In this document: piece by piece, positions 14,832-29,416 of the stretch
How the letters are laid out: every line of letters begins with the position of its first letter
Numbering within the stretch: the stretch's first letter is position 1
Source: Merismopedia glauca CCAP 1448/3
GTDB taxonomy: Bacteria; Cyanobacteriota; Cyanobacteriia; Cyanobacteriales; CCAP-1448
NCBI RefSeq assembly: GCF_003003775.1
Contig: NZ_PVWJ01000038.1
Location: 1-40,961 of the forward strand
Direction of reading: 5' to 3'
DNA length: 40,961 nucleotides
Notes under the pieces: generated by a model
Databases searched by the model: none
The model's input: only the letters and a program-made list of their open reading frames with translations
What the model was told of the DNA's origin: nothing
Translations under genes and position numbers: made by a program

Positions 14832-15878
14832 TTAAATCAGAAAAATAAGGATCAAAATTAGATTTGAGATTCCAAAACTTGTGGGAAATAACCAACGACA
14901 GATGCGATCCATTTTCATTGATATATCTTCTTTTTTTTCGGCATTAAGGTAATGTTTAATAACTATTTGAATAATTGCCAAACAGATTACTAAATAACTA
15001 ATCAAAATAAATCCATTGATAAAAGTTAAGTAAGCTACTTTGGGTAATTCTTCAGCAATAACTATATTAAAAGCGATCGCGCTGAGCAAACTACTAAAAG
15101 AAATCACGGTATTTGATTCAAAAGACCTCGACCAAAACACGGTAAATGAGACTGCAATTATCAGAAGTAAAGGAACGATAATATTCCAAAAGTAAGAATC
15201 GGAATCTCGGAAAAGATCGATTTCATATATGTATTGGTTTTCTTCAATATTCTCAACTTCAGATTTGGTAATTTCAGCTACAGCGTTCTGTTCGCCTATT
15301 TTCCAACCCGTGAGAAAAGCTTCAGACGATCTACCAGTTTTGCTTTTATCTACATTAAAAATTACTTGCTCGGTATCGTTTAAAGGCGACTCCAAAACTA
15401 ATTTTAGCTTTTGGCGATCAAAAGGAAACCTTCTGACATCCATTTCTGATTTGAATGTTCCTTTAAAACGTTCTTTATAGTTGACTGTACCATCTGGGTT
15501 GACTTTGATTTGAGTATAAGCCTTTTCTCGCTTTAACTCTACATTGGCAAAATGAACGTCGGGCAACCAAATTTCTCCAGGTTTATAAGTTTTAGAACCC
15601 AGATTGTTTTGATTTGCTTGAAAGGCTAAACGTTGATCTTTCCAAGTTAGAAATAAGTAACCATCTAATTTAAAAGATTCATTTTGTTCGTCAAATTTAT
15701 CGAAATCAACTAGATAGATGCCGACAGATACTTGAGTTGGTTCGCTTAGATTAGGTCTAACTTCGGTAAGTTGAGATTTAGTTGTTTTAGAATTAGTTTC
15801 TTGGGCGCGAGAGGGAAGTGTATTTAAAGGTATATAGATCGAAATAAATGTGAGGAAGTAAATTATTTTATGACGCAT
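14832..15878 (-). CDS. Prokaryotic pentameric ligand-gated ion channel
   Basis: 348-residue Cys-loop-receptor homologue of the GLIC/ELIC type, with no intracellular domain. A signal peptide covers residues 1-25 (ending LPSRA). The beta-sandwich binding domain (about 35-227) shows VSVGIYLVDFDKFDE, GEIWLPDVHFAN and the signature segment MDVRRFPFDRQKL, with no loop cysteines, as in bacterial members. Four membrane helices follow: M1 about 229-250 (starting with the family's IIVPLLL), M2 about 254-275 (the pore), M3 about 281-307 and M4 about 329-348. The M3-M4 link is only about 20 residues, as usual in bacteria. The ligand cannot be told. The gene stands alone. Confidence 0.92.
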   Translation of the reverse strand: MRHKIIYFLTFISIYIPLNTLPSRAQETNSKTTKSQLTEVRPNLSEPTQVSVGIYLVDFDKFDEQNESFKLDGYLFLTWKDQRLAFQANQNNLGSKTYKPGEIWLPDVHFANVELKREKAYTQIKVNPDGTVNYKERFKGTFKSEMDVRRFPFDRQKLKLVLESPLNDTEQVIFNVDKSKTGRSSEAFLTGWKIGEQNAVAEITKSEVENIEENQYIYEIDLFRDSDSYFWNIIVPLLLIIAVSFTVFWSRSFESNTVISFSSLLSAIAFNIVIAEELPKVAYLTFINGFILISYLVICLAIIQIVIKHYLNAEKKEDISMKMDRICRWLFPTSFGISNLILILIFLI

Positions 15879-16055: not shown

Positions 16056-18191
16056 CTAGGCTTCGACTAGGATAATTTCGTCATTCAAGTCACTGTCGGC
16101 GATCGCTTCTTTTACTTCTGGTTGCGCCCCTACTACGGTAATGGAGAAGTTAGCGCCTGCTTTTTGTTTGAAGAAGGCGAGGTAGCGTAAAGCTTCATCG
16201 GAGATAGATTTTAAATCCTCCATCAGCAAAGTTAAACTAGTCGCACCGTGGGCTTTTTCTAGTTCTTCTTTGAGATACTTCAACATACTTGACTCTAAAT
16301 CTCCAGATAAACAGATTTTGGCGTTTCCGTCTGTGAATTCTAGTAAATCAGCGTCAAAGTTGAGGGAAGCGGGTACGATGCGGACTCGGAATTTCATCTC
16401 AGTTTGATCGGTGGGTAAGGTTACAGTTAGAGCTTCCGCATCAAAATCGGTATATTTGTTACCATTGAGCCAAACTTCGTCAATTCGCACACTTCCAGGA
16501 GGTAAAATATCTGGTTGCACCCGCAACAGATTGTCTGGGAATCCTCCTGGTGTGGGTTTGAAGTAGAAATCCATTGGCTCTTGGTTAATCAGCAAGTTGG
16601 TATAAACTGCTGATAGGTAAGCCAACTCAAAAGAGTGATATCCTGCCATAGAATGGCTGCCTTTGCCCCGTTCCGTACCTAGTGAGTAAGGCTGTCCGTT
16701 GGCTAAAACGTTGAAGTAAACCCCACCTGCGTCGGTGTCTAGGAACCAGGAATTGTAGAAAGCGGACGATTCTCGTGCTAAGCGGAGATACTCTGGTTTT
16801 TTCAGAATGCCACCTAAGATCAGATAAGCGAGGATTGCTTGTTCTTGCTGCCACCAAGCCTTGCGGTCGTGCCAAGCAAAACGGTGATATTTCTCACCAG
16901 GGGCAAGGACTCGTTCTACTACGTCGTACCAACCACCGCGCTGGCGATCGCTTCCGACTTCCGGCATAATGTGAGCAATTTTGGTAGCTAAGTCTGTATA
17001 TTCTGACTTGGATTTGAGACTGTCCATTCGCATCAAATTCCAAGCAATTTTCAGGTTATGTCCGACTACAGCGCGGTTTTGCTGCCAACCCCAAGTTTGA
17101 TCTTTAGACCAATCTTCCAGAAACTTCTCTTGCACGAAGGGACTTTCACCGTAATCGGGGAAGCGTTGGGCAATGGTATCAAAAGTATACTCCAAGAAAT
17201 CAGCATATTCACTGGCTCCTGTAGCTAGCCACAGGTTAATTAGATAAGCAGGAGCGTGATCGCCGACGGAATTCCAGTTTTTTCGCGCCCGATTGTGACC
17301 TAAAGATTCACTACGGGGATCTAGGGTAATCGGATCGATGTGGGAGAAGAAACCGCCTTTTTCGGTAGTATCTTTGAAATAGCGATTGAATAGATTGATC
17401 GTGCCCTTGATATCATTGAGGATGCGGCGATCGCCCGTGATGCGGTAAGTTTGAGTTGGTCCTGCTAAGGCGTAAATCTGTTCGTAACAGGGAATTGCGT
17501 CAAAGTCATCGCCAAACTCCGAAGCAAATATTTTCTGTTCTGAGCCATTTTCTTGAATATCGACGGCGTGATACCAATAACAGATATCCTCACTCTTGTC
17601 GCGGAAGCGCATATGTTCTCGCAGGTACTGAGTACCTTTATCTGCTGCTTCTAGATAACGTTCTTCCCCAGTCATTAGGTAAGCAGAAGCAAACCCGTAA
17701 ACCAAACGAGAGATGGTATCAGTTTCTTGTCGCCCAGTTTTTTGGCGATCGCCAGTCATGGTTAAATTGGTACGGTACTTGGTATAGTCGATTTCCTCGT
17801 CGCCAAACTCACATTTAATATAGAAATCGGCTAATTCTCTGACTTGTTTAATCCACCAGTCTTGTTTTTCAAACAAAAACTCGTTTTCCGTGCGTCCAAC
17901 GAAGAGGATATGCTTGGCTTCAAACTTGTAGTCACCATTTGCGCCATCTGGGTAAAAAACGCCATAAGCAAACAGAAATCTGCCAGGAACGAGCATATCC
18001 CGCATTTGGGCAGTAGCATCGTGATAAGCTTCCCCCAAGTTACGGACTAATTCACCGTAAACATTGGCGCTGAAATGAACCAGAAACTCGCGATCGTCTG
18101 AGGTTTTGAGGGTAAAAGCATCTTGGCTTTTGTCAAACCCAGTCACATAACCAGCAATTAAGTCTGAAAACGTAAAATCGATTTTATTCAT
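16056..18191 (-). CDS. AGE-family epimerase-fold protein fused to STAS-like domain
   Basis: 711 residues. About 1-120 is a beta-rich head of unknown type. About 130-560 is an (alpha/alpha)6 barrel of the N-acylglucosamine 2-epimerase family, with NWNSVGDHAPAYLINLW, VVGHNLKIAWNLMRM, FAWHDRKAWWQQEQAI and GSHSMAGYHSFELAYL giving the expected histidine, Trp and acid positions. A linker leads to about 85 C-terminal residues (KICLSGDLESSMLKYLKEEL, then TSLTLLMEDLKSISDEALRYL) that resemble a STAS/anti-anti-sigma domain, with a serine where the phosphorylated residue would sit. That would tie sugar chemistry to partner-switch signalling (inference). AAGGTGAT lies 6 bases before ATG 18191. It lies downstream of glgX on the same strand with a 520-base gap full of palindromes. 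Confidence 0.85.
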   Translation of the reverse strand: MNKIDFTFSDLIAGYVTGFDKSQDAFTLKTSDDREFLVHFSANVYGELVRNLGEAYHDATAQMRDMLVPGRFLFAYGVFYPDGANGDYKFEAKHILFVGRTENEFLFEKQDWWIKQVRELADFYIKCEFGDEEIDYTKYRTNLTMTGDRQKTGRQETDTISRLVYGFASAYLMTGEERYLEAADKGTQYLREHMRFRDKSEDICYWYHAVDIQENGSEQKIFASEFGDDFDAIPCYEQIYALAGPTQTYRITGDRRILNDIKGTINLFNRYFKDTTEKGGFFSHIDPITLDPRSESLGHNRARKNWNSVGDHAPAYLINLWLATGASEYADFLEYTFDTIAQRFPDYGESPFVQEKFLEDWSKDQTWGWQQNRAVVGHNLKIAWNLMRMDSLKSKSEYTDLATKIAHIMPEVGSDRQRGGWYDVVERVLAPGEKYHRFAWHDRKAWWQQEQAILAYLILGGILKKPEYLRLARESSAFYNSWFLDTDAGGVYFNVLANGQPYSLGTERGKGSHSMAGYHSFELAYLSAVYTNLLINQEPMDFYFKPTPGGFPDNLLRVQPDILPPGSVRIDEVWLNGNKYTDFDAEALTVTLPTDQTEMKFRVRIVPASLNFDADLLEFTDGNAKICLSGDLESSMLKYLKEELEKAHGATSLTLLMEDLKSISDEALRYLAFFKQKAGANFSITVVGAQPEVKEAIADSDLNDEIILVEA

Positions 18192-18288
18192 GAGATATCA
18201 CCTTAAGTTGATAAATTTGGAGAATTACATCTGTCTTAGATCTCACCCCCTTCCATTACCCAGATCTAAGGCTGGGCGTTACATCCGC

Positions 18289-18403
18289 CAGGGACTTAAG
18301 TCCCTGTCTCATCGCTAAAGTCGGTTAAAACCGACTAAAAAGCCTTTCTCTTGAGTCCGTTTGAACGGACTTGAGCTATGAGCCACCGAATTGATTCGGT
18401 GGC
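18289..18403. repeat. Composite repeat of four consecutive short palindromes
   Basis: Four hairpins in about 115 bases: CAGGGACTT/AAGTCCCTG (18289-18306), AGTCGGTT/AACCGACT (18319-18336), AGTCCGTT/AACGGACT (18354-18371) and GCCACCGAAT/ATTCGGTGGC (18382-18403). The 523-base gap between glgX and the epimerase gene holds this plus the element at 18655 and no convincing gene. The cluster would form a multi-hairpin RNA or a mobile-repeat relic. Confidence 0.85.
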
Positions 18404-18654
18404 GGAAAGCAAGCGTGGGTAAGGATTTCATCAGATATCGGTAAAGCATAGGCTTGTAGGGAAGGGGGTTTGGTGAAATGGAAATTTAGCGATCGCCGAA
18501 CTGCATTTGTGCGTGTTTTTGCACGTATCTGTACTCTTGCATGAATATAATTGAAAAACGTGCATAATTGTGTAATTCATGTAGCAACCTGCAACTTCAC
18601 AGACAAACGCGCACGAGTGATTAGACAAAAGTAGTTGGGAGTCAGAATCTGGTT

Positions 18655-18713
18655 TCTTGTGGGATAGCCGTCTCGGCTGTCCCTGGGGCAGGCAGGATGC
18701 CTACCCCACAAGA
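18655..18713. repeat. MITE-like element with 9-bp terminal inverted repeats, copy 1
   Basis: Ends TCTTGTGGG and CCCACAAGA. Inside are GATAGCCGTCTCGGCTGTCC and GGGGCAGGCAGGATGCC. The same element lies in opposite orientation, with about 15 extra bases in the middle, at 21600-21673. It stops one base short of the glgX stop codon (18715-18717). Confidence 0.85.
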
Positions 18714-18714
18714 G

Positions 18715-20820
18715 TTATTTAGAAATCAGCACTACCACGCTGCGCCCTGAAACTAGATAATGAGAAGAGGTAATTTCTTCTTCCATACCAGCTTCAGCGA
18801 TATCTTGGGGGGAAACCTGCGCCGTATCGACACTGCGATACCAGCGCCTACCTGGAACCGTAGGAAGGGCAAATTCCAACTGTTCCCAGTACATATTGCA
18901 CATGATGTGGAGATCTGCTTCCCCATCAAAACCACCCAGAGTAAAAGCTAGGGTACGGGCGTTAGGATCGTTCCAGTTAGGGGTATTGAGTTCGCAACCA
19001 TGCCAAGATATATCTGGTAAACCGCGATCGTTAATCGCACCTGTAAAGAAACGGGAACGATGAATCGCTGGATGCTGCTGGCGGAACTTCATCATTAACT
19101 GCCAGAACCGCAGTAAATCGCTGTTTTTTTCGACCAAGTTCCAATCAAACCAGCTAATCTCGTTATCTTGGCAATAGGCGTTATTATTCCCTTTTTGGGT
19201 GCGTCGGACTTCATCACCCATGACGATTGTGGGGACACCTTGAGATAGTAACAGGAGAGTAGCAAAGTTTTTGATTTGGCGATCGCGCAATTCTTCAATT
19301 TCCCGATTCTCCGTCTCTCCTTCTACCCCACTATTCCAACTCAGGTTGTCATTAATCCCATCTTGGTTTCCTTCCCCATTGGCTTCGTTGTGCTTTTCGT
19401 CGTAGGAAACCAGATCGTTGAGGGTAAAACCGTCATGAACGGTAATGAAATTAATGCTATTAATCGGTAAATGTCCGTTACTTTCGTACAAATCGGCACT
19501 GCCAGCGATTCTATTCGCCACTGCACCGATGATCCCAGCTTCTCCCTTGACAAAGCGCCGCATATCGTCCCGATACCTGCCATTCCACTCTGCCCAACGA
19601 TAGCCAGGGAAATAGCCAATTTGATACAATCCCGCCGCATCCCAAGCTTCAGCGATGATTTTGGTATCGGCTAGAGTTTCCGATAATTCGATATTCCAGA
19701 CTACTGGAGGATACTGCAAAGGGACTCCATCTTGTCCGCGAGATAAGACAGAACCTTCATCAAACCGGAAACCATCAACGTGTAACTCTTTAACCCAATA
19801 TTCCAAAGACTCCAGAATCAATTTTTCGGCAATTGGATGATTGCAGTTAAAAGTATTACCGCAACCAGTGTAATCGTAGTAATACTGTTTATTACCTTCA
19901 ACTAGATAGTAGTAGATGCTATTATCTATACCTCTGAAGCAAAAAGTTGGCCCTTGATGATTGCCTTCATCAGTGTGATTGAAGACGACATCCAAAATCA
20001 CCTCAATTCCTGCTTGATGCAGCGCTTTGACTAGATCTCGAAACTCTTTGACGTGTTCCCCCATTTCTGGATTAGTACAATAACCACTATGGGGAGCAAA
20101 ATAGCCCATTGTACTGTAACCCCAGTAGTTAGTTAGAGGTTTCCCATCTACATAGCGCAAAGGTTCGGTGTCATCGAAATCAAAGATTGGCAAAAGTTCA
20201 ACTGCTGTCACCCCTAATTGTTTAAGATAGGGAATTTTCTCGATGATTCCGGCAAAAGTTCCGGGATGATTGACCCCTGATGTGGGAGATTTTGTAAATC
20301 CACCGACATGCATCTCATAGATAATACTTTCAGCCATCGGACGATTGAGAGGGCGATCGCCTTCCCAATCATACTCCTCGGTGTCGATGACCACACTCCG
20401 CATCGATGTGGTTAAATTATCCCCAGGTACGCAGGCATTGCCCCGCTTCCACAAGGTTTTATTATTACCTTTAGCATAGGGATCGATTAACACTTTATTT
20501 TTATCAAATCGATGTCCCGCACTTAAATCTTGAGGACCATCAACTCGATAAGCATAATGGATTCCTGATGGTAAACCTTTCACGTAAATATGCCAAAAAT
20601 GAAAGGTTTTATTAACCGTTGGATCTAGGCTAATAATCTGAATTGGTTCTGGATCGTCATGGTCGTTAAATAATAGTAATTCTACTCCAGTGGCGTGTTC
20701 TGAAAATAGCGAAAAATTCACCCCATTAGCATCAGGAGTAGCACCTAAAGGATGACGAGTGCCTTTAGCTGTTTGATAAATAGTGGGAGAAACTTTAGGA
20801 ATCTCTAATATTGTAGTCAT
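18715..20820 (-). CDS. glgX: Glycogen debranching enzyme (isoamylase type)
   Basis: 701-residue GH13 enzyme that cleaves alpha-1,6 branches of glycogen. An N-terminal beta-sandwich module (to about 150, with HPLGATPDANGVNFSLFSEH) precedes the barrel. Catalytic region: DVVFNHTDEGN, nucleophile in VDGFRFDEGSVL (about residue 352), acid in IIAEAWDAAG (about 390) and VHDGFTLNDL (about 463). The residue after the nucleophile Asp is Glu where Leu is common. The ATG overlaps the stop of the upstream DJ-1/PfpI gene by four bases (ATGA), so the two are translationally coupled. Cytosolic carbon-storage turnover is expected; a narrower substrate is possible given the unusual neighbours. Confidence 0.95.
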   Translation of the reverse strand: MTTILEIPKVSPTIYQTAKGTRHPLGATPDANGVNFSLFSEHATGVELLLFNDHDDPEPIQIISLDPTVNKTFHFWHIYVKGLPSGIHYAYRVDGPQDLSAGHRFDKNKVLIDPYAKGNNKTLWKRGNACVPGDNLTTSMRSVVIDTEEYDWEGDRPLNRPMAESIIYEMHVGGFTKSPTSGVNHPGTFAGIIEKIPYLKQLGVTAVELLPIFDFDDTEPLRYVDGKPLTNYWGYSTMGYFAPHSGYCTNPEMGEHVKEFRDLVKALHQAGIEVILDVVFNHTDEGNHQGPTFCFRGIDNSIYYYLVEGNKQYYYDYTGCGNTFNCNHPIAEKLILESLEYWVKELHVDGFRFDEGSVLSRGQDGVPLQYPPVVWNIELSETLADTKIIAEAWDAAGLYQIGYFPGYRWAEWNGRYRDDMRRFVKGEAGIIGAVANRIAGSADLYESNGHLPINSINFITVHDGFTLNDLVSYDEKHNEANGEGNQDGINDNLSWNSGVEGETENREIEELRDRQIKNFATLLLLSQGVPTIVMGDEVRRTQKGNNNAYCQDNEISWFDWNLVEKNSDLLRFWQLMMKFRQQHPAIHRSRFFTGAINDRGLPDISWHGCELNTPNWNDPNARTLAFTLGGFDGEADLHIMCNMYWEQLEFALPTVPGRRWYRSVDTAQVSPQDIAEAGMEEEITSSHYLVSGRSVVVLISK

Positions 20821-21485
20821 GATTTATTTTCTGAATAAACTTCTACCGCCAGCATATTGATGATTTCTTTAGCAAATAAATGACAGTGCGCGCCAGTTCT
20901 TCCTGTCACTAAATCCCCATCTACAACCACATCTTTATCTGTATAAATTGCCCCCATATTTACTACATCTCCATGCAAGTTATTGTGGCAAGTTACAGGA
21001 CGACCTTTGACTAATTCTGGAACTGAAGCAACTAACCACATTCCATGACAAATGATCCCTTTAAGGATATTTTTTTCGGCAAAAGCTCGTTTAAGAAACT
21101 CGGTTGCAGGAGACAGTTCGCCGACTTTTTCTGAATATCTCAACCTGTCAGAAACAAAAGCCGAAGGTACGATGATAGCTGCATAAGATTTCAGTTCTAC
21201 ATCATCAATATTCTCAAAGCTTTCATGACATTCTAAAGGTGCATGATATTCGTGTCCTTGGAAAGTAAGGGAAGCTTGACCCCACAGACGGGTCAGGAGA
21301 TGAACGTCAGCCCCTTCTTCAGCAAAGCGGTAATGATAATACCAAATCTCGTGTTCGTAAAAGTCACTTTCAATTAAAATTCCAATCTTTTTTCCTGGTA
21401 GTTTGGCGACTGATAGATCTGCTTTTGTGACTCCATTTTTGCCAGGAGGTGCAGCCTGTAATTTATCTAAGGTAGAAACGAGCAT
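20817..21485 (-). CDS. DJ-1/PfpI family protein
   Basis: 222 residues of the DJ-1/PfpI fold. After a ~30-residue N-terminal extension come KKIGILIESDFYEHE (acid at about 39), HEYHAPLECHESF and the nucleophile elbow KGIICHGMWLVASVPE with Cys146 and adjacent His147. The family includes proteases, chaperones and glyoxalase III/deglycase-type enzymes. The Cys-His-Gly elbow fits PfpI-like hydrolase or deglycase chemistry, but substrate is unknown. GGGAAAGAT precedes the ATG at 21485. The end overlaps glgX by four bases, tying it functionally to glycogen breakdown (inference). Confidence 0.9.
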   Translation of the reverse strand: MLVSTLDKLQAAPPGKNGVTKADLSVAKLPGKKIGILIESDFYEHEIWYYHYRFAEEGADVHLLTRLWGQASLTFQGHEYHAPLECHESFENIDDVELKSYAAIIVPSAFVSDRLRYSEKVGELSPATEFLKRAFAEKNILKGIICHGMWLVASVPELVKGRPVTCHNNLHGDVVNMGAIYTDKDVVVDGDLVTGRTGAHCHLFAKEIINMLAVEVYSENKS

Positions 21486-21543
21486 TTTTTATCTTTCCCT
21501 AAACATAATATTTGACATTCATAGCGGAGAATAATTGTCTGGC

Positions 21544-21571
21544 GTAGGGGCGCAACGCATTGCGCCCCTAC
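21544..21571. repeat. 28-bp palindromic repeat, family B (GTAGGGGCGC)
   Basis: Arms GTAGGGGCGCAA and TTGCGCCCCTAC-type halves around an ACGC/GCAT centre. It lies in the 199-base gap upstream of the DJ-1/PfpI gene, 28 bases from the MITE-like copy 2. Confidence 0.85.
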
Positions 21572-21599
21572 AGATATCTGTTGTCCGATCTTTAACCAA

Positions 21600-21673
21600 T
21601 TGTGGGGTGGGCATCCTGCCTGCCCCAGGGATAGCTAAATACCAGGGACAGCCGAGACGGCTATCCCACAAGA
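21600..21673. repeat. MITE-like element, copy 2 (inverted)
   Basis: Inverted relative of 18655-18713: its reverse complement reads TCTTGTGGGATAGCCGTCTC, then GGCTGTCCCTGG, a 15-base insertion, and GGGGCAGGCAGGATGCC. It lies 12 bases after the stop of the ankyrin gene. The inverted pair brackets glgX and the DJ-1/PfpI gene. Confidence 0.85.
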
Positions 21674-21684
21674 GATCGGATTAA

Positions 21685-23145
21685 TTAGTGCCCCATGATT
21701 TTGGCTTTAATTAACGGGACAATTCGCTCATCATCAGCACCCAAAACATCGATCGCAATATCTAAGACTTGTTTGCCGTCATGACCTTTTAAATCTAATC
21801 TGGCACCAGCATTAATTAAGATTTCAGCACATTCGCTAAACCCATGCCAAAGGGCATCGTGAAGGGGTGTATAACCATTAATTGGTCCTTGGATATCTAG
21901 ATCGATATCGGGGTGTTGCACCAACATTTTGAGAATTTCTGGATTGCCATTATAGGTGGCTTTATGAATTGGAGAACCCTTAAATACCCAATCTTCAACT
22001 CTCACTTTCGCACCCGCTTGTAGAAGTTCTTGAACAATTTCTGTATGTCCGTCGCGGGCAGCAACTAGTAGGGGAGTATGACCATCTGAAAATGAATTAA
22101 CATGAGGATAAAGAGTATTAACATCAGCCCCACTAGCAATTAATTCTCGAACTGTTTTTAGATCTCCCTGATTAGTAGCAGCCATCACCGTTTGAGATTC
22201 AATCTGGCTGTGTGCTGTCTTGCTACCCCCATCAATAATCTCTTGCATGACCACAAATTTCTGTTTCTCCTCACCTTGATTGACATTTAGTTCAAATTTG
22301 AGGTGATCTTCTAAAGTAAAGCCGTAATGGGTGCCTAAATTGAGATTTGCGCCATGTTCTACTAATAAATTGACTATTTCGGGCCACTTGTACCACAGAG
22401 CATCCATAATGGGTGTATGTCCCATTGTGGGAGTGACTGCATCGACAAACGCACCTGCATCTAGCAGCAATTTCGCCACTTCGACGCTTCCACCCTGACA
22501 AGCCTTGTGTAAGGGTGTTGCGCCAGTTTTACTATCGGTAGTGAGGAGATCTGCACCTGCATCTAGCAATAATTTGACCATTTCTGGGTTAGCATGACAG
22601 ACAGCAGTCATTAAAACAGTTAAGCCGTTTTCAAGATTGCGAGTGTTAGGATTAGCAGTTTCTTGCAACAGACGTTTAGCTGTATCTAGATCGTCATTTT
22701 CCACCGCCTCAATCAAACGAGAACTTAAATCTCCTCTAAAAGCTGCAATAATTGGGGATGGATCGCAATAAGATTTCCATTTGACAATTTTGCCCCCAGC
22801 AACTTGCATCGAGGTTGCAAAAGTGATGTCAAAAGTAATTCCAGTATCTTTAACCGTAGTAATATCATGGACGACACCAAAAGCGCGATCGCCCTGGACT
22901 ACCAGATCTACGGGTTTAAATAGTTTAACTTGGGCAATGCGATCGCGAGTGGCAAAAGATTCACTCACCTCCTTCACTCCATGAGAGGTCCCAATCCAAG
23001 GAATCACGTCACTTACCCCCGCAACGGGTTGTAAATTCACCCATTCCACATCATCGGCTAAACAACTCATCGCTGTGGCGTAATCCCCTTCGTCGAGGGC
23101 TTTAAACCAGGTTTCTGTTACTCTTTGGGTTTCTGCTTGACTCAT
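21685..23145 (-). CDS. SnoaL/NTF2-like domain fused to ankyrin repeats
   Basis: 486 residues. The first ~140 form a SnoaL/NTF2-like cone (VTETWFKALDEGDYATAMSC, DDVEWVNLQPVAG, then GGKIVKWKSYCDPSPII), a fold used for small hydrophobic ligands, cyclases and isomerases. The rest is about seven ankyrin repeats, clear in ENGLTVLMTAVCHANPEM, GATPLHKACQGGSVEVAKLL, GHTPLLVAARDGHTEIVQEL and GYTPLHDALWHGFSECAEIL. The ankyrin stack implies protein binding, perhaps scaffolding of the cluster's enzymes (inference). GAGGTGAAT precedes ATG 23145. The gap to the GMC gene is 50 bases and holds a palindrome. No signal peptide, so cytosolic. Confidence 0.92.
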   Translation of the reverse strand: MSQAETQRVTETWFKALDEGDYATAMSCLADDVEWVNLQPVAGVSDVIPWIGTSHGVKEVSESFATRDRIAQVKLFKPVDLVVQGDRAFGVVHDITTVKDTGITFDITFATSMQVAGGKIVKWKSYCDPSPIIAAFRGDLSSRLIEAVENDDLDTAKRLLQETANPNTRNLENGLTVLMTAVCHANPEMVKLLLDAGADLLTTDSKTGATPLHKACQGGSVEVAKLLLDAGAFVDAVTPTMGHTPIMDALWYKWPEIVNLLVEHGANLNLGTHYGFTLEDHLKFELNVNQGEEKQKFVVMQEIIDGGSKTAHSQIESQTVMAATNQGDLKTVRELIASGADVNTLYPHVNSFSDGHTPLLVAARDGHTEIVQELLQAGAKVRVEDWVFKGSPIHKATYNGNPEILKMLVQHPDIDLDIQGPINGYTPLHDALWHGFSECAEILINAGARLDLKGHDGKQVLDIAIDVLGADDERIVPLIKAKIMGH

Positions 23146-23171
23146 AATTCACCTCAATGATTGGGTTGACG

Positions 23172-23199
23172 TTAGGGGCGCAACGCATTGCGCCCCTAC
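23172..23199. repeat. 28-bp palindromic repeat, family B, overlapping a stop codon
   Basis: Copy of the GTAGGGGCGC palindrome with the first G replaced by T. On the minus strand its terminal CTAC half supplies the TAG stop (23196-23198) of the GMC oxidoreductase gene. Confidence 0.85.
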
Positions 23200-24701
23200 G
23201 GGGTTATGTCTTGGGCTAAAATACGATCTAGGCAACGTTCGGCGATCGCTGCAATGGTTAAGGCTGGATTGACACAGGTACTAGATCCTGGGAGTAAAGA
23301 ACCATCCACGACGTATAAATTTGGATATCCGAAAACTCTGCCATACTCATCGCAAACCCTTCCCATACAAGCGCCACCTACCTGATGTCCGGTAATTTGG
23401 GCGGCAATTGGAGGCACTTCTCCACCGTTTTTCTCGCTCAATTTTTCGGCTAAATACTTAGCAGCTTCCTTGGCTTTTGGATCGCTGGTAAAATTTAGTT
23501 GAACAGTATCGGAATCGCGATCGTAACTAAAATTACCCCGATGATTAGTCATGGCAAAAACGAAAGTACCAATGACATTTTTCTCAGGGAAATCTTGCTC
23601 AAACCTGGGTAATGGCGCGCGCATCATCACGCAAGGAAGAATGGGATTTTGATAATTTAGAACAGCGATCGCACCTGGCCCTCCTAAGTGTGGATTAGTA
23701 GTTTCTGAAAGATGGGTACGAAAAGCATAAGTATCTCCATCATTCCCAAATCCTTGACCTAACTCATCATTAATTCTGGGTAAGTTTCCTTTGGCTTTTG
23801 CTTTAATTAATAGATCGCAAGTTCCCATCGTTCCCGCCGCCACAAACAAGTATTGGCAAGTTAATATTTGCTGGTCAACTACATCGCCGGAATCATTAAT
23901 TATGTCTACTGAAACTGCATATCCACTTCCAGGATTTTGGGCAATTTTAGTTACTAAATGGTGAGTTCTGATTTCTACATTTCCAGTTGCTTCAGCCAGT
24001 TTTAAATAGTTGCTATCTAGAGTTTTTTTACCTCCGCTATTATTGCCAAACCAAAACTCAGCCGCAATTACAGATGCGACTTTTTTGCCAGCTATTTCCT
24101 CTCTGACAATATCCCAATCTACACCCATTGGAAAACGAGTTACCCCATCCTTTAATCCAGAATTAGATGATTCTGTGTAGGGAAATTCAGATTTCAAAGC
24201 TTGCTGTTCTAATATCTTTAAACCTAGATAATATTCACTCTCTAAAACATCATCTGGAATTGGGGAAGTGCCAATTACCGAATGAACTCTGGGAAAGTAA
24301 ACCGCATCCATTTCTTCGTAACTAATGGAATTAGGAAAAACTTGTTCAAATAGTTCTTTAGGTGGTTGAATTAAAATCCCACCATAAGCCAAAGAACCAC
24401 CGCCAACTCCAGAACCTACTAGAAACTTATAATCTCCTTTTTCAATAACTTCTAATACCCCTGTAGATTTCTGAATCGGAATGCCTTCATAACCTGGAGT
24501 TTTGGTTACAGTGTTGAGCCATTCTGCGCGTCCATCAGGGTTTCTAAAAGTGGCAAAAGTATCATTTGTTGTGGGATCTTTAATCGTCCAACGCCGACCC
24601 CTTTCTAATACAATAGTTCTAATTCCCGCTTCTCCTAAACGTAAAGCCGATACTGCTCCTCCGAAACCGCTACCAATGACAATTGCTGTAATATCAGTCA
24701 T
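23196..24701 (-). CDS. GMC-type FAD oxidoreductase, cholesterol-oxidase-like
   Basis: 501-residue flavoprotein. FAD binding: AIVIGSGFGGAVSALRLGEAG and VLERGRRW at the N-terminus, GSGVGGGSLAYGGILI in the next part, and LFVAAGTMGTCDLLIKA. C-terminus: ITGHQVGGACMGRV and VVDGSLLPGSSTCVNPALTI carry the His and Asn expected at the active site in the cholesterol-oxidase-like GMC branch. It would oxidise an alcohol, typically with oxygen or another acceptor. No signal peptide, so cytosolic. The substrate is unknown; sterols are unlikely in cyanobacteria. Neighbours (SnoaL, VOC, EthD and ThDP enzymes) suggest a small-molecule pathway. The stop codon lies within a palindromic repeat. Confidence 0.92.
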   Translation of the reverse strand: MTDITAIVIGSGFGGAVSALRLGEAGIRTIVLERGRRWTIKDPTTNDTFATFRNPDGRAEWLNTVTKTPGYEGIPIQKSTGVLEVIEKGDYKFLVGSGVGGGSLAYGGILIQPPKELFEQVFPNSISYEEMDAVYFPRVHSVIGTSPIPDDVLESEYYLGLKILEQQALKSEFPYTESSNSGLKDGVTRFPMGVDWDIVREEIAGKKVASVIAAEFWFGNNSGGKKTLDSNYLKLAEATGNVEIRTHHLVTKIAQNPGSGYAVSVDIINDSGDVVDQQILTCQYLFVAAGTMGTCDLLIKAKAKGNLPRINDELGQGFGNDGDTYAFRTHLSETTNPHLGGPGAIAVLNYQNPILPCVMMRAPLPRFEQDFPEKNVIGTFVFAMTNHRGNFSYDRDSDTVQLNFTSDPKAKEAAKYLAEKLSEKNGGEVPPIAAQITGHQVGGACMGRVCDEYGRVFGYPNLYVVDGSLLPGSSTCVNPALTIAAIAERCLDRILAQDITP

Positions 24702-24753
24702 GATTTTTATCTCTAGGCATCATCTGTTTCATAATTTTTTGATTTGTGCGGGT

Positions 24754-24781
24754 GTAGGGGCGCAATGCATTGCGCCCCTAC
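24754..24781. repeat. 28-bp palindromic repeat, family B (GTAGGGGCGCAATG)
   Basis: Perfect palindrome of arms GTAGGGGCGCAATG and CATTGCGCCCCTAC. It lies in the 110-base gap between the VOC and GMC genes. Confidence 0.9.
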
Positions 24782-24811
24782 AATGCCTGTTAAATACAAA
24801 CAAAAAACTAA

Positions 24812-25261
24812 TTATTTGTTCGGTTCAAATGTCTCCACAAACTGTACGATATTACCTTCATTGTCCCTGACAAAAAACTCTTTAAATCCAATATCTTCAA
24901 CTACAATTAAATCCCAGGCAATAGTAATCGGACGACTTTTAACTTTTGCGATTACTTCTTCAATATTGTCAACCTTAAAAGTAATTTGACTAACACCTTG
25001 AATCGTTGTATGTTGAGGTGGATTAGGGCGATCTATGGGATGCCATTTCTGGTCTTCAATTAATTCAATTCTGACAGTATTGACTTCTAGAAATACAATT
25101 CTAGTTCCATACTCAGGAAATTCTCTTCTTAAAACTTCCTCAAAACCCAAATTTTCTTGATACCATTTAGCCGTTTCTTCTAAATTAGATACAGCTAAAG
25201 AAATACCTAAGTTTTTAACAGTTGCTACCACACCCGTATTTTGTTCTGTCATCATGACCAT
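24812..25261 (-). CDS. VOC (glyoxalase/dioxygenase-fold) protein
   Basis: 149-residue vicinal-oxygen-chelate protein. The two beta-alpha-beta-beta-beta halves are seen in KNLGISLAVSNLEETAKWYQ with LGFEEVLRREFPEYG, and in HTTIQGVSQITFKVDNIEEV with GFKEFFVRDNEGNIVQFVE. The last Glu (QFVE) is the usual metal ligand. The first-half metal residue, often His, is not obvious (GISLAVSN), so activity may differ from glyoxalase I. Members act on methylglyoxal-glutathione, catechols or bind drugs. AGAGGAAAG lies upstream of ATG 25261. Cytosolic. Its place in the cluster fits handling of reactive carbonyls or aromatic intermediates (inference). Confidence 0.88.
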   Translation of the reverse strand: MVMMTEQNTGVVATVKNLGISLAVSNLEETAKWYQENLGFEEVLRREFPEYGTRIVFLEVNTVRIELIEDQKWHPIDRPNPPQHTTIQGVSQITFKVDNIEEVIAKVKSRPITIAWDLIVVEDIGFKEFFVRDNEGNIVQFVETFEPNK

Positions 25262-25306
25262 AGTTATCTTTCCTCTAATAGAATATTTTTTTTTGATTTC
25301 AATCGA

Positions 25307-26005
25307 TTAATTACGAAATTCTGGACCAATAATCCAATGTTCGTTAGCTAGAAAACTATGAGCATATTTCATCTCAATAAAATTCTCTAAATCTGCTGTA
25401 GATTCTTGATATTCTGGAGATAGCTTCATCTCTTCAATAGCTTGAACGCTGTCAAACCAAAGAATAGAAACGCAATCTAAGATAGCTTCTCCAATACTGT
25501 AGTAAGAATCTCTAACATGGCATTGCACATAGCGACGCAAACCAGGAAGTTTTAGATCTTTAGCAGCATGAATATCTAAACTATATTTGCGGAAATCTTC
25601 TAGAGACATACCCTCTTTCCGCTTCACCATTGCGAAGATTTTCACCATATTAGAATCTTTTTTTTGAGGCTCTCCTTCAAGTAAAATATGGGAATCGGTA
25701 TCTAGTACCACTGTCCGCCAAAAAGCTGCCCATTTAGGCTCATCTAGACGTGCGCCTTGCAAGAACTCTGGGGTTTGTAACGAGGCTAATTGTTCGGTTT
25801 CATTATTGAGCCAAATTTCAGCTACGCCACTAAATAAAGGATCGGCTGGTTCTGGTTCAACTGGAATTCTAGTATCAATTAAATAACCTTTGATTTGGGG
25901 AATTTTGCTAGCATAATTAACAGCGTGAACGTTAACCCAATAATCTTGAAAATCTTTTTCACTCATGCCTGGTTTAGGGTGAGCAAAGATCAATTGATGA
26001 ATCAT
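25307..26005 (-). CDS. Tandem EthD-domain protein
   Basis: 232 residues made of two similar EthD (ferredoxin-like dimeric alpha/beta barrel) halves. Half one begins MIHQLIFAHPKPGMSEKDFQ with a WVNVHAVNYASKIPQIKGY helix-turn. Half two begins MVKIFAMVKRKEGMSLEDFR with SLDIHAAKDLKLPGLRRYV. Single-domain EthD proteins usually dimerise; here the dimer is a single chain. The family is linked to ether degradation clusters and to polyketide cyclases/oxygenases, with loosely defined activity. Both halves keep the His of the motif (VHAV and IHAA). GAGG precedes the ATG with a 5-base gap. The SnoaL gene ends just 26 bases upstream, so co-transcription is likely. Confidence 0.88.
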   Translation of the reverse strand: MIHQLIFAHPKPGMSEKDFQDYWVNVHAVNYASKIPQIKGYLIDTRIPVEPEPADPLFSGVAEIWLNNETEQLASLQTPEFLQGARLDEPKWAAFWRTVVLDTDSHILLEGEPQKKDSNMVKIFAMVKRKEGMSLEDFRKYSLDIHAAKDLKLPGLRRYVQCHVRDSYYSIGEAILDCVSILWFDSVQAIEEMKLSPEYQESTADLENFIEMKYAHSFLANEHWIIGPEFRN

Positions 26006-26031
26006 ACAAACCTCAAAAAATAAATGAATAA

Positions 26032-26613
26032 TTAACCGGCTGGACTGTTAGGATCTAGGATTAAAGTTCGGCTTTTAAACTTCCAGCGATCACGTATTTT
26101 TACCAATCTATCTTGATAAATTCCACTGCGAATAATCGTGGCGGGATTATTTTTGATATTCATGGCGATGATGTAGCACCCAGATTTAGCACCAGCAACA
26201 TCAGGTTCAATTACTAAGTCATTAATCCAATGACGAGTGGTTTGGATATCAGGAAATGTTTTATAGGTACGAATCAGGTCGTCAAATCCCGTAGCTTTGA
26301 GTAATACTTCTCCATTAGTTTGGACGATAGAAAATGTGCCATCAGGAGTGAATGTATTTGCCCAATTAGTTGCAGGATCGCCAACAATCAACTTATCGAG
26401 TCCATCTAGAACATAGAAATAACGGGTGCTGAGATCTTGAATGGCTAAGATATCTACGGTAGATAAAATCTGAGACTTCTTAGTCGTTCGAGCTAAAATT
26501 GGTGATGAATAAACACTGCTTAATAGCAATGTTGAAAATCCTGCACCACCCAGCCACAAAATTCTACGTCGCGTCAATTTTTTCTGCTCAAAACCAGCAA
26601 TGAAACCTTTCAT
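26032..26613 (-). CDS. Tat-exported SnoaL-like protein
   Basis: 193 residues. The N-terminus has a twin-arginine-like signal: KKLTRRRILWLGGAGFSTLL, likely cleaved after ILA (residue ~40). The rest is a SnoaL-like (NTF2-fold) domain: DILAIQDLSTRYFYVLDGLD, NWANTFTPDGTFSI, TTRHWINDLVIEP and a final RDRWKFKSRTLILDP. SnoaL domains cyclise or hydrate aromatic and terpene intermediates. Export by Tat would place it in the periplasm or thylakoid lumen, apart from the cluster's cytosolic members (inference). The ATG follows GGGAGGAGGT almost directly. A palindromic repeat (family C) occupies the 38-base gap to the ThDP-enzyme gene. Confidence 0.88.
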   Translation of the reverse strand: MKGFIAGFEQKKLTRRRILWLGGAGFSTLLLSSVYSSPILARTTKKSQILSTVDILAIQDLSTRYFYVLDGLDKLIVGDPATNWANTFTPDGTFSIVQTNGEVLLKATGFDDLIRTYKTFPDIQTTRHWINDLVIEPDVAGAKSGCYIIAMNIKNNPATIIRSGIYQDRLVKIRDRWKFKSRTLILDPNSPAG

Positions 26614-26623
26614 ACCTCCTCCC

Positions 26624-26648
26624 AGAGACGTAGCACTGCTACGTCTCT
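26624..26648. repeat. 25-bp perfect palindrome, family C (AGAGACGTAGCA)
   Basis: AGAGACGTAGCA and TGCTACGTCTCT flank one central C, in the 38-base gap between the SnoaL and ThDP genes. Related to 15946-15974 and 31329-31357 but without their TGACTTC flanks. Confidence 0.9.
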
Positions 26649-26651
26649 ACG

Positions 26652-28358
26652 TTATTGTCCGCACCTGATGCCTATCATTTCTGGGTGAACATTACCCTCT
26701 AAAACCAGGTCAATTAGGAATGGTCCATTGTGAGATAATGCTAGAGCGATCGCACCAGCAATTTCTTCTGGTTTCTCTACCCGCACGGCTTCTATCCCCA
26801 ACGCACGAGCCATTTCGTCAAACCGAATCGCAGGGTGCGATAAGTCAAAACTCAAGGGGAAGTCGTGAGTCGGGATATTCTGCTCGTTCCAGTAGGCTTG
26901 AATATTAAGCTGTAAGATGCGGTAAGAGCGGTTGTTGCAAACCACAAATTTGGCATTAATATTGTGACGAGCCGCAGACCAAAGGGCTTGGATGGTATAC
27001 ATAGCGCCACCATCCCCTGTAAAGCCGATTACAGGCTTTTCTGGATGAGCTAGCTTCGCCCCAATAGCCCCTGGTATTCCTACGCCCAAAGAGCCGCCAC
27101 GGGTCAAAAAGTAGTGTCCTGGCTCGGTTGTAGGTCGATATCTGGTAACGGCTGGGGAATTGGTCAGAGCTTCGTCAAAAATGATGGCATCTGGGGGTAA
27201 TTGAGTGGCTAGTTCCGCCATGAATTGAGATAAGTGCAGAGGAGTAGAGTTTTGGAAAGAGCGATCGCGCTCTAACTCTTCCTCTCTCTTTGCCACTTTG
27301 GCTGAGGCTATTTTCTGAGTCCTAGCTTCAGCCTTTGCCTTTTGCTCATCTGTCATCAACCCTTCTAACAGAGTTGCCAACTTAGCCAACGTCAGCTTCG
27401 GATCGCTAACTAAACCTAAATCTACAGGGTGATTTTTGGCAATTTCATAAGCATTCAAGTCAATATGAATTACCTTCGCTCCAGGAGCAAATATATTCCC
27501 CAAGGTGGGAAAAACTTCTGGTAACAAGTAGGTTCCACAGACTAAGTTGACATCTGCTTGAGAAGTAATCGGCAAACTTTGAGAGCCAAACATATGCCCA
27601 GTCGCTCCTTGGTAGAGAGGATGAGCTTGGCTCATATTCAACTCTCCAGCATCCGACTCCCATACCTGAGCGCCCAAAAGCTCGGCAACATGAGTTAATT
27701 CTGCCTGTGCGCCGGAAAAAGCGACCCCATCTCCCACAAAAATGATAGGGTTTTCCGCCGCAGCTAACATCATCGCTGCTGCTTTCAGAGATTCGTCATC
27801 TGGTATAACCCTGGTAGAAGGAAAGGAAGTTGGAAACACCTCTTCGACTACAGGAGCATCTAAAATATCTTGCGGTAAACACACGTATACAGGTCCCATT
27901 GGCGGAGTCGCCGCAATCTTAATCGCCCGTCGCAATACCCGCAGCAAGGAAGATGGTTCTACCACCATCGTCGCCCATTTAGTGACTGGTTCGGCTAAAG
28001 CCACCAAATCCCCCGCCATTTGCGCGTCCATCGCCTGATACTTAATTCCTGCATCTCCACCAATCACTACTAGAGGAGAGTGACCCCGTTTCGCCTGATA
28101 AAGCGCCCCGATCGCATTGCCCAATCCAGGAGTACTATGGATTTGTACTACCGTTGGCTTTTGGGTGGCTCGTGCATAGCCATCAGCAGCCATCACAGCT
28201 ACGGTTTCTTGCAAAGTCAGGATATATTTCAGTTCTGGATATTCTGATAAAGCATCCAAAAAACCTTGCTCAACTGTTCCAGGATTGCCAAATATGTAAT
28301 GAATGCCATCTGCTAAAAATTGCTCTAGGATGGCAAAACGCCCAGTTTTTTTGCTCAT
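26652..28358 (-). CDS. ThDP-dependent enzyme, benzoylformate-decarboxylase-like
   Basis: 568 residues from ATG 28358; a GTG nine bases earlier (28367) is an alternative. The pyrimidine-binding domain has the ThDP glutamate in ILTLQETVAVMAADGYARAT, preceded by FGNPGTVEQGF. The segment QIHSTPGLGNAIGALY matches the HS motif of benzoylformate decarboxylase, whose His is catalytic. The C-terminal domain has GFTGDGGAMYTIQALW and VVCNN, the Mg-ThDP signature. The family also includes acetolactate synthase and oxalyl-CoA decarboxylase. The FGNPG and HS features favour a 2-oxo-acid decarboxylase or carboligase on an aromatic or short substrate. Cytosolic. First or second gene of the minus-strand cluster. 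Confidence 0.9.
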   Translation of the reverse strand: MSKKTGRFAILEQFLADGIHYIFGNPGTVEQGFLDALSEYPELKYILTLQETVAVMAADGYARATQKPTVVQIHSTPGLGNAIGALYQAKRGHSPLVVIGGDAGIKYQAMDAQMAGDLVALAEPVTKWATMVVEPSSLLRVLRRAIKIAATPPMGPVYVCLPQDILDAPVVEEVFPTSFPSTRVIPDDESLKAAAMMLAAAENPIIFVGDGVAFSGAQAELTHVAELLGAQVWESDAGELNMSQAHPLYQGATGHMFGSQSLPITSQADVNLVCGTYLLPEVFPTLGNIFAPGAKVIHIDLNAYEIAKNHPVDLGLVSDPKLTLAKLATLLEGLMTDEQKAKAEARTQKIASAKVAKREEELERDRSFQNSTPLHLSQFMAELATQLPPDAIIFDEALTNSPAVTRYRPTTEPGHYFLTRGGSLGVGIPGAIGAKLAHPEKPVIGFTGDGGAMYTIQALWSAARHNINAKFVVCNNRSYRILQLNIQAYWNEQNIPTHDFPLSFDLSHPAIRFDEMARALGIEAVRVEKPEEIAGAIALALSHNGPFLIDLVLEGNVHPEMIGIRCGQ

Positions 28359-28552
28359 TAATTTCACTTGCTATAGAGTCGCCAAAGGGAGTTTTTTAGC
28401 TCAAACTCTTGTAGAGCAAACATTTTGCCTGACTCTAGAGTTTGTAAACCTCTTGCAAAAGTATTTTTAGGAATCGATACGAACACAAAGGCTTTCAGGA
28501 GAAGATCTTCCCCTTGTTCCCTCTTCCTTCCTCCTTCTTTCTTCACTAAAAA

Positions 28553-29416
28553 CTACCAACCGTAGCGAGTTAACCCTTTTTCCAACACTTCCACTAAAAC
28601 CCGTCCACATTCAACAGAAGAAGCGGTGGAACGACTAGTAATAAAGGGATAATCGACGATTACTGAAGTTTCATGCCCAACTCTACCGATATAAGCGCCA
28701 TCAGGCCCAACTGCATCCCGCAAAATATACTCTAGAGGATAGAAAGGAGCGCCAAAATTGATATATCCATCGCCAAAACCTTTCTTAGAGCCATCTATAG
28801 CATGATGACCTTCAAATCCTGTCCCATCGAGATAATCGTAGTCAATTGGATGTCCGGTGACTTTTTTACCCCAAATTAAGCTCTTTTTATCTCTAAAGTC
28901 GCGAGCAAACGCCAAACAGCTAACCCCATAACATTCAGCCGCAATGGGTTTGTTGAGTTTGACAAAGCCCATCACTAGCTCGTGTATTCTGTGATTATTG
29001 GCTAAATCTACTAATGCCCCACTACCACCGACAATAACTAGAGCATCATAGGCAACTAGTTCCTCAGCTACAATTTTGTCAATTTTTTTGTAGTAGGCTT
29101 CCATATCTCTGAGATAGGTTGGCGAACTAGGGTAAGCTCGCTGAGGAAACCAATCTGCCAAGCTTTTAGGACTATCTAATCTGTTTGAATCATCTATTTG
29201 ACGGGTTTTTTGCCCCATTTCTTCAGAAGTTACCGATCGCCCTAATGGTGGATCTAAGTAACCAGGCGTACAACTTACTGATAATGGAGTAGGTCTTTTC
29301 CCATTTGGAGTTAAGAAAGCAATCTCATATCCAGCCGCATCGCAGGCTTCCAAAGGGCCTATTAACTCTTCACCCCAGTAACCCCATTCTGACAAGACAA
29401 ATAAAACTTTTTTCAT
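28553..29416 (-). CDS. DJ-1/PfpI (class I glutamine amidotransferase-like) protein
   Basis: 287 residues with KKVLFVLSEWGYWGEELIGP, the acid E16 region, DALVIVGGSGALVD and the nucleophile elbow PIAAECYGVSCLAF with Cys162 (E-C-Y-G). Compared with small DJ-1 proteins it has extra loops (about residues 50-115 and after 180), as in the larger Hsp31/glyoxalase-III-like group. The Cys-based hydratase or deglycase activity of that group is plausible but not shown. It is the most upstream gene of the minus-strand cluster; 194 bases separate it from the ThDP gene. With the copy at 20.8-21.5 kb the cluster has two DJ-1 members. Confidence 0.88.
   Translation of the reverse strand: MKKVLFVLSEWGYWGEELIGPLEACDAAGYEIAFLTPNGKRPTPLSVSCTPGYLDPPLGRSVTSEEMGQKTRQIDDSNRLDSPKSLADWFPQRAYPSSPTYLRDMEAYYKKIDKIVAEELVAYDALVIVGGSGALVDLANNHRIHELVMGFVKLNKPIAAECYGVSCLAFARDFRDKKSLIWGKKVTGHPIDYDYLDGTGFEGHHAIDGSKKGFGDGYINFGAPFYPLEYILRDAVGPDGAYIGRVGHETSVIVDYPFITSRSTASSVECGRVLVEVLEKGLTRYGW

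Follow-up and report, generated by a model that had tools for sequence, protein, structure and literature searches.

A Conserved Gene Cluster around a Thiamine Diphosphate-Dependent Enzyme in Merismopedia glauca: An Apparently Rewired icfG-Type Carbon-Metabolism Locus

Introduction

Do ten genes that stand in a row on one strand, and whose families range from glycogen debranching to carbonyl chemistry, form one system, and does that system resemble any that is already known? The question is raised by a cluster at positions 16056-29416 (minus strand) of a 40,961-nucleotide stretch of the cyanobacterium Merismopedia glauca CCAP 1448/3 (assembly GCF_003003775.1, contig NZ_PVWJ01000038.1, positions 1 to 40,961 of the forward strand), the whole of which is referred to herein as the window. 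In transcription order, the cluster encodes a DJ-1 superfamily protein (DJ1a), a thiamine diphosphate (ThDP)-dependent enzyme, a SnoaL_4 protein, a double EthD-domain protein, a VOC protein, a GMC oxidoreductase, a SnoaL-ankyrin protein, a second DJ-1 protein (DJ1b), the glycogen debranching enzyme GlgX, and a fusion of an AGE epimerase/isomerase barrel to a STAS domain (AGE-STAS). A first-pass annotation had listed these ten genes with their families, and all ten open reading frames were indeed present and uninterrupted, with Pfam and NCBIfam in agreement.

The gene neighborhoods strongly support the assignment of the ten genes to one conserved gene system. As for its nature, we give about even credence to the reading that the genes constitute a conserved, horizontally spread system of glycogen-linked carbonyl and 2-oxo-acid enzymes, the core of which is shared with the icfG-type partner-switch locus; in the window, a known cluster for the control of carbon metabolism has apparently been rewired. 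This variant of the icfG-type locus has the fused AGE-STAS, the added ThDP/GMC/EthD/SnoaL set, and an adjacent homolog of the ligand-gated channel GLIC. No description of the gene combination was found in the literature searched, most subscription journals being outside its coverage.

Conservation and spread of the gene system

Among 148 sampled genomes of the window's order, the ThDP enzyme (threshold E ≤ 1e-100) and DJ1a (E ≤ 1e-40) occur in an identical set of 17, each gene in 20 copies, and no ThDP copy is more than ~2 kb from a DJ1a gene. The double EthD gene is present in nine genomes, every one carrying ThDP, and AGE is present in 38, namely 16 of the 17 with ThDP versus 22 of the remaining 131 (Fisher p 3e-10, a value overstated, like that of 3e-6 given for RsbW below, because of relatedness and near-duplicate loci such as L018/L060, L167/L181, L177/L191, and L207/L209-L211). 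The ten-family order, followed by the channel gene, recurs in four further genomes (G015, G017, G118, and G147) that represent, with the window, two of the order's families; in G017 and G118, VOC is matched only in part, and G017 has an additional VOC-like gene. All ten families are likewise found in Leptolyngbya sp. SIOISBB (L158), with VOC in another place, and incomplete versions of the cluster occur in G026, G050, G016, G043, G131, G008, and G095. The ThDP frame of G118 (L060) is broken in two, by either decay or sequencing error. A second locus in the window's own genome (G000:C40, L058) encodes GlgX, AGE-STAS (68%), a second ThDP copy (67%), and DJ-1 proteins, together with a response-regulator/thioredoxin-reductase-like fusion and a cyclic nucleotide monophosphate-binding histidine kinase.

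Beyond the order, the best 80 of at least 585 confirmed ThDP relatives from a scan with a ThDP alignment were taken as loci, in which presence was called by tblastn (E ≤ 1e-10, with identity floors of 45% for DJ1a, 33% for DJ1b, 36% for AGE, and 40% for the others). These loci fall into about 12 phyla, the labels of which follow the database records and may be affected by misbinning in the many metagenome-assembled genomes (MAGs): Cyanobacteriota (26), Actinomycetota (15), Bacteroidota (11), Chloroflexota (8), Pseudomonadota (7), Deinococcota (3), Planctomycetota (3), and Deltaproteobacteria/Desulfobulbus (3), with single loci, all from MAGs, in Omnitrophota, Nitrospirota, Acidobacteriota, and Bacillota. 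As the linkage is also seen in non-MAG records (Streptomyces, Spirosoma, Larkinella, Runella, Dyadobacter, and Nostoc), binning error cannot account for it. DJ1a accompanies ThDP in 77 of the 80 loci, at a median gap of 52 bp and within 700 bp in 74; the other partners are DJ1b (54), AGE (43), GlgX (32), double EthD (17), and SnoaL-ankyrin (11), and 62 loci contain at least one of DJ1b, AGE, and GlgX. GMC, VOC, and SnoaL_4 genes of the window's kind (5, 3, and 4 loci, respectively) lie outside this wide core, and different GMC, VOC, and SnoaL families occupy the corresponding places in other loci.

The ThDP gene is also found on 14 PLSDB plasmids. On a complete Streptomyces plasmid, the order runs EthD, DJ1a, ThDP, DJ1b, AGE, STAS, GlgX, STAS, anti-sigma factor, SpoIIE, and MinD, followed by a maltotransferase-domain protein (GlgE-like), GlgB, a TrkA-C protein, and a cation:proton antiporter; on a complete Deinococcus plasmid, it runs DJ1a, ThDP, two other genes, GMC, DJ1b, VOC, AGE, STAS, GlgX, STAS, SpoIIE, and MinD. 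The first-pass annotation had proposed a single system and suggested that the order of families be sought in other genomes; for the core (DJ1a-ThDP, DJ1b, AGE, and GlgX), the linkage within the order and across about 12 phyla bears this proposal out, the neighborhood being kept far beyond close relatives. The glycogen and carbonyl themes that it had named likewise recur beside the cluster in other phyla, where GlgX, GlgE-type, GlgB, and TreS genes stand with extra DJ-1, VOC, GMC, and SnoaL genes.

A protein of ~145 residues, absent from the window, is encoded in 60 of 100 loci (e.g., L193 11750-12178), often directly after ThDP, and the two members checked gave no Pfam match. Single-cell genomes labeled Prochlorococcus (L207, L209, L210, and L211) encode GlgX, AGE-STAS, a TPR/2OG-Fe(II) oxygenase-like protein, DJ1a, and ThDP, which is unexpected for small genomes.

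Relation to the icfG-type locus

The first-pass annotation had recognized no pathway, a statement that can no longer stand: the DJ-1/AGE/STAS/GlgX core of the cluster is also the core of icfG-type carbon-metabolism loci, so partner-switch regulation is the nearest precedent. In Synechocystis, one source describes a salt-repressed operon, slr1852-1862, that includes the epimerase Slr1855, the anti-sigma antagonist Slr1856, GlgX, and IcfG (PMC8670252). According to a second source, Slr1861 is both a kinase and the anti-SigC factor, Slr1856 and Slr1859 are its putative antagonists, IcfG is the phosphatase of Slr1856, and mutants have carbon-related phenotypes (PMC12329169); slr1853 is annotated as a carboxymuconolactone decarboxylase (CMD) in a third (PMC3564720).

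As in slr1852-slr1862 of Synechocystis PCC 6803, DJ-1, AGE epimerase, STAS, and GlgX occur together in the window, although the order is altered, with GlgX before AGE, and STAS is fused to AGE; the window also adds the ThDP, DJ1a, GMC, EthD, and SnoaL-ankyrin genes. A CMD domain is also encoded in the icfG-like locus L079, where SnoaL genes and a CMD-EthD-VOC-SnoaL fusion lie upstream of DJ1b. AGE identity is about 62-69% for the icfG-like loci. Locus L072 has the order DJ1b, AGE, STAS, GlgX, STAS, SpoIIE-like, and RsbW-like, which matches what we take to be the detailed order of slr1854-slr1861 in Synechocystis. Most loci with an unfused main-type AGE have STAS between AGE and GlgX and a second STAS 3' of GlgX, followed by an RsbW-like HATPase, and part of them also have a SpoIIE phosphatase; a set of this kind goes by the name of icfG cluster in the literature. 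In the window, neither the RsbW-like kinase family nor the SpoIIE/PP2C phosphatase family was found, and the cluster gave no STAS match outside the fusion that would indicate a second, stand-alone STAS gene.

The AGE-STAS fusion

The AGE-STAS gene (16056-18191, minus strand) encodes an AGE barrel at residues ~102-540 (Pfam) and a C-terminal STAS domain at residues ~612-711. The STAS part received no Pfam call at E ≤ 0.001 and was identified through tblastn, in which residues 637-711 match stand-alone genes, and through alignment; two of the stand-alone matches, in L079, are Pfam STAS. Proteins of at least 700 residues were classed as fused, with L202 and L214, which do not end in STAS, excluded manually (leaving 26 of 28 rows); the AGE of L169, truncated at the edge of its locus, was treated as fused in the tree because the contig is as long as that of L019.

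Where 3.5 kb or more of sequence follows AGE, RsbW is present in none of the 19 fused and in 14 of the 20 unfused loci (Fisher p 3e-6), the six unfused loci without it being members of a distant AGE group. The serine of the SAGLR motif is kept in all 32 stand-alone STAS rows (17/17 and 15/15) and in 10 of the 26 fused rows; in the window, as in six others, no such serine is kept and Asp stands at that column. From the motif and from earlier work, this serine is inferred to be the phospho-acceptor, and it aligns one residue before what we take to be the phospho-serine of SpoIIAA. In an AGE tree built by a quick method, the fused label requires two changes versus 18.4 in shuffles, and the 20 icfG-type rows form one group (support 96) among fused rows. 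The fusion thus appears, on sequence grounds, to be old and to accompany the loss of the local phospho-switch, the direction of change not being readable from the tree. As it is joined to the epimerase and has Asp at the phosphosite column, the STAS domain of the window is more likely a reporter or structural element than a local phospho-switch; it may report the state of the enzyme to a partner encoded elsewhere.

Gene organization and active sites

DJ1a (28553-29416) is a ThiJ-like protein by Pfam. It is followed on the same strand by the benzoylformate decarboxylase-like ThDP enzyme (26652-28367; Pfam and NCBIfam, full-length match), the SnoaL_4 protein (26032-26613; Pfam), the N-terminus of which looks twin-arginine-like by eye only, the double EthD-domain protein (25307-26005; Pfam and NCBIfam), the glyoxalase-fold VOC protein (24812-25261; Pfam), and the GMC oxidoreductase (23196-24701; Pfam), which matches cholesterol oxidase 1b8s over its full length (E 1.5e-83). 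The SnoaL-ankyrin protein (21685-23145) combines a SnoaL_2 domain with ankyrin repeats (Pfam), and DJ1b (20817-21485) is a DJ-1/PfpI protein (Pfam); GlgX (18715-20820) passes the curated threshold of TIGR02100 (727.7 bits vs. a cut-off of 640.9). From the coordinates of the reading frames, intergenic spacings are short in places (26, 38, 45, and 50 nt, with two genes overlapping by 4 nt) and long in others (110 nt between VOC and GMC, 185 nt between DJ1a and ThDP, 199 nt between SnoaL-ankyrin and DJ1b, and 523 nt between GlgX and AGE), and this unevenness means that the cluster may be split into two or three transcription units. Across the cluster, neither promoter-like sites (27 vs. 31.0 in shuffles) nor terminator-like sites (13 vs. 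13.7) are in excess, and no word of 9-12 bases is shared by at least five of the ten upstream regions. Two gaps contain strong GC-rich hairpins (21645-21667 and 26624-26648), which could be attenuators or repeats.

Several conserved residues are signs of enzyme competence. Glu54 and His77 of the ThDP enzyme are invariant in 17 sequences, Cys162 of DJ1a is conserved in at least 95% of 92 rows, and Cys146-His147 of DJ1b in at least 90% of 60 rows, so that the elbow cysteine is retained in both DJ-1 proteins. The ThDP enzyme matches benzoylformate decarboxylase (1bfd) over its full length and keeps the cofactor Glu and the equivalent of His70, but Val285 aligns with the third catalytic residue, His281, leaving the set of cofactor Glu and two catalytic His incomplete; the roles of these residues are those that we take them to have in benzoylformate decarboxylase. 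The AGE part scores 51.7 bits against a Pfam GlcNAc_2-epimerase cut-off of 23.4, and its predicted fold is that of the superfamily: the AGE-STAS model (mean predicted local distance difference test score 86.4), which was searched whole so that the N-terminal and STAS folds were barely probed, aligns with D-mannose isomerase 5x32 (Z 35.0, 2.6 A over 379 residues), and its top Foldseek match is the Runella glucose-2-epimerase 8h1l. The barrel is thus shared with 5x32, 8h1l, and cellobiose 2-epimerase, at identities of 13-20%, while the window protein has an additional N-terminal domain and the STAS domain. His378 and His519 are invariant in 32 sequences, the latter presumably equivalent to the catalytic His of characterized epimerases.

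Weighing the explanations

Several observations weigh against the reading of a glycogen-linked enzyme system with an icfG-type core. DJ1b, AGE, and GlgX are all missing from the fetched stretch of 18 of the 80 loci, many of which lie on short contigs, and the likeness to icfG is one of gene families and of published descriptions; in addition, a search of the window's genome at E ≤ 1e-6, made without a positive control, found no icfG-type RsbW, and other HATPase_c_2 proteins are encoded there, two of them strong. In a distance-matrix test that is blurred by paralogs, agreement is good for AGE-DJ1b (r 0.86) and AGE-GlgX (r 0.68) and fair for ThDP-GlgX (r 0.57) and ThDP-AGE (r 0.50), but it is poor for ThDP-DJ1a (r 0.19, with 17 of 999 permutations as high) and lacking for EthD-ThDP (r 0.06) and DJ1a-DJ1b (r 0.05). 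On this pattern, DJ1b-AGE-GlgX is the stable unit, to which the ThDP-DJ1a pair and the tailoring genes are attached more loosely. The chemistry is also less settled than the families, since Lys381 of AGE replaces the active-site Glu of 8bry, and the ThDP enzyme (307.4 bits vs. 493 for NF005485), the GMC protein (136.6 vs. 850 for NF058674, far below), and the VOC protein all miss the curated NCBIfam cut-offs of named enzymes; the reactions of all four may accordingly differ from those of their characterized relatives.

It is possible, though doubtful, that the locus is instead a dedicated biosynthetic cluster in which ThDP, GMC, SnoaL, EthD, and VOC proteins build or tailor a small molecule such as a signal, a pigment, or a modified peptide, the part of GlgX and AGE being limited to the supply of sugar. 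Pairs of genes for Nif11-like leader peptides lie beside EthD or GMC genes in L094 (4344-5002), L155 (5879-6530), L194 (12767-13486), and L234 (17552-18212), the last on a plasmid of Nostoc sp. ATCC 53789; they are near ThDP/EthD genes, with GMC genes 3' in L234, and a Pfam check of one member per pair in L094, L155, and L194 was made for Nif11. A peptide product is thereby hinted at in some relatives, GMC, alpha/beta hydrolase, and SnoaL genes pile up in related loci, and tailoring genes differ among loci around a constant core. In the window cluster, however, no Nif11 gene was seen and no polyketide synthase or nonribosomal peptide synthetase family was matched among the ten proteins (Pfam and NCBIfam; no rule-based cluster detector was applied); moreover, the core is common to icfG-type regulatory loci, and the conservation of ThDP and AGE from phylum to phylum is unusually strong, more as in central metabolism. 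An operon for aldehyde defense, in which DJ-1, VOC, GMC, and ThDP proteins remove reactive carbonyls arising from glycogen and sugar turnover under stress, appears unlikely. The VOC protein and the two DJ-1 proteins with a conserved Cys would fit it, as would the aldehyde-oxidase, aldo/keto reductase, and extra SnoaL genes of other loci and the increase of slr1853 and slr1854 under ethanol recorded in PMC3564720; yet two of the enzymes, a GMC oxidase and a 2-oxo-acid decarboxylase, would be sources of carbonyls as well, and slr1852-1862 is repressed by salt (PMC8670252). A chance juxtaposition of unrelated genes on one strand is scarcely credible: the spacing is uneven, including the 523-nt gap, and no shared word of at least nine bases occurs in five of the ten upstream regions, but the identical order in four other genomes and the recurrent linkage in about 12 phyla speak against it, and for the core the linkage counts in the 148 genomes and the 80 loci rule it out. 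For single tailoring genes, a chance neighborhood could still hold.

The adjacent GLIC-type channel

Directly downstream of AGE-STAS, and outside the cluster, lies a gene for a pentameric ligand-gated channel subunit of the GLIC type (14832-15878, minus strand). The first-pass annotation had found no transporter gene, which is correct within 16056-29416 but overlooks this neighbor. Its ligand-binding and membrane domains both score above cut-off (PF02931, 97.3 bits; PF02932, 36.1 bits), and among solved structures it is closest to GLIC entries (E 1e-72). Four other sampled genomes have a close ortholog (56-59% identity), in each case directly 3' of AGE-STAS, so that the channel adjoins the cluster in all five genomes with a close ortholog, the window included; 11 more sampled genomes hold homologs of 23-37% identity. 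The channel frame of G147 (L061) contains one stop, again by either decay or sequencing error. Among 50 other cluster-bearing genomes, drawn from the 80 loci, none has the channel beside the cluster, and four have a homolog (30-32% identical) on other contigs; a general link between cluster and channel is therefore not supported, and the channel is a local companion, not a core member.

Compared with GLIC from Gloeobacter, the window channel is 38.9% identical over 306 positions, and the equivalents of E35, E222, and R85/Y102/E104 are retained in all five neighboring orthologs; in contrast, H235 is Ala in all five, R77, N152, and E181 are mostly changed, and one of the five cluster-adjacent copies has the in-frame stop. 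The roles of GLIC residues are taken from PMC5760087 and PMC7336382, according to which vestibular R85, Y102, and E104 bind carboxylates. It may be speculated, as a rather improbable extension, that the native ligand of the channel is a small carboxylate made or consumed by the cluster, while AGE-STAS reports flux to a sigma factor; if true, this would combine an enzyme set, a membrane receptor, and a transcriptional relay in one locus. The adjacency, however, is known from two families only, in five genomes; the intersubunit site has for the most part changed, an in-frame stop interrupts one copy, and the 50 other cluster-bearing genomes offer only the four distant homologs on other contigs. 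A gene for a TMEM175-type potassium channel lies beside AGE in L081, L085, and L087 (only L085 being Pfam-checked) and in the same locus in L197, L208, L215, L216, and L220.

Perspectives

In the preferred reading of a glycogen-linked system with an icfG-type core, GlgX would open glycogen branches, the AGE barrel would epimerize or isomerize the sugar set free, and the ThDP enzyme would form an aldehyde or acyloin by decarboxylating or ligating a 2-oxo acid, a product that the GMC, SnoaL, EthD, and VOC proteins could oxidize or rearrange; the two DJ-1 proteins would remove reactive carbonyls or convert them. The icfG-type loci connect such genes to a sigma-factor switch through a STAS protein that can be phosphorylated.

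The AGE-STAS protein, in which an enzyme-like domain is joined to an anti-sigma-antagonist domain, offers a direct handle, and the neighboring GLIC homolog provides a testable route to the native ligand of a bacterial pentameric channel. The icfG operon is also placed in a new light: its switch genes and its DJ-1, AGE, and GlgX genes accompany a larger set of enzymes from phylum to phylum, so a metabolite of this set may serve the switch as input or output. Finally, the occurrence of a gene set whose ThDP and AGE members are highly conserved, from cyanobacteria to Streptomyces, Bacteroidota, and Deinococcus points to what may be an unrecognized piece of bacterial carbon metabolism.

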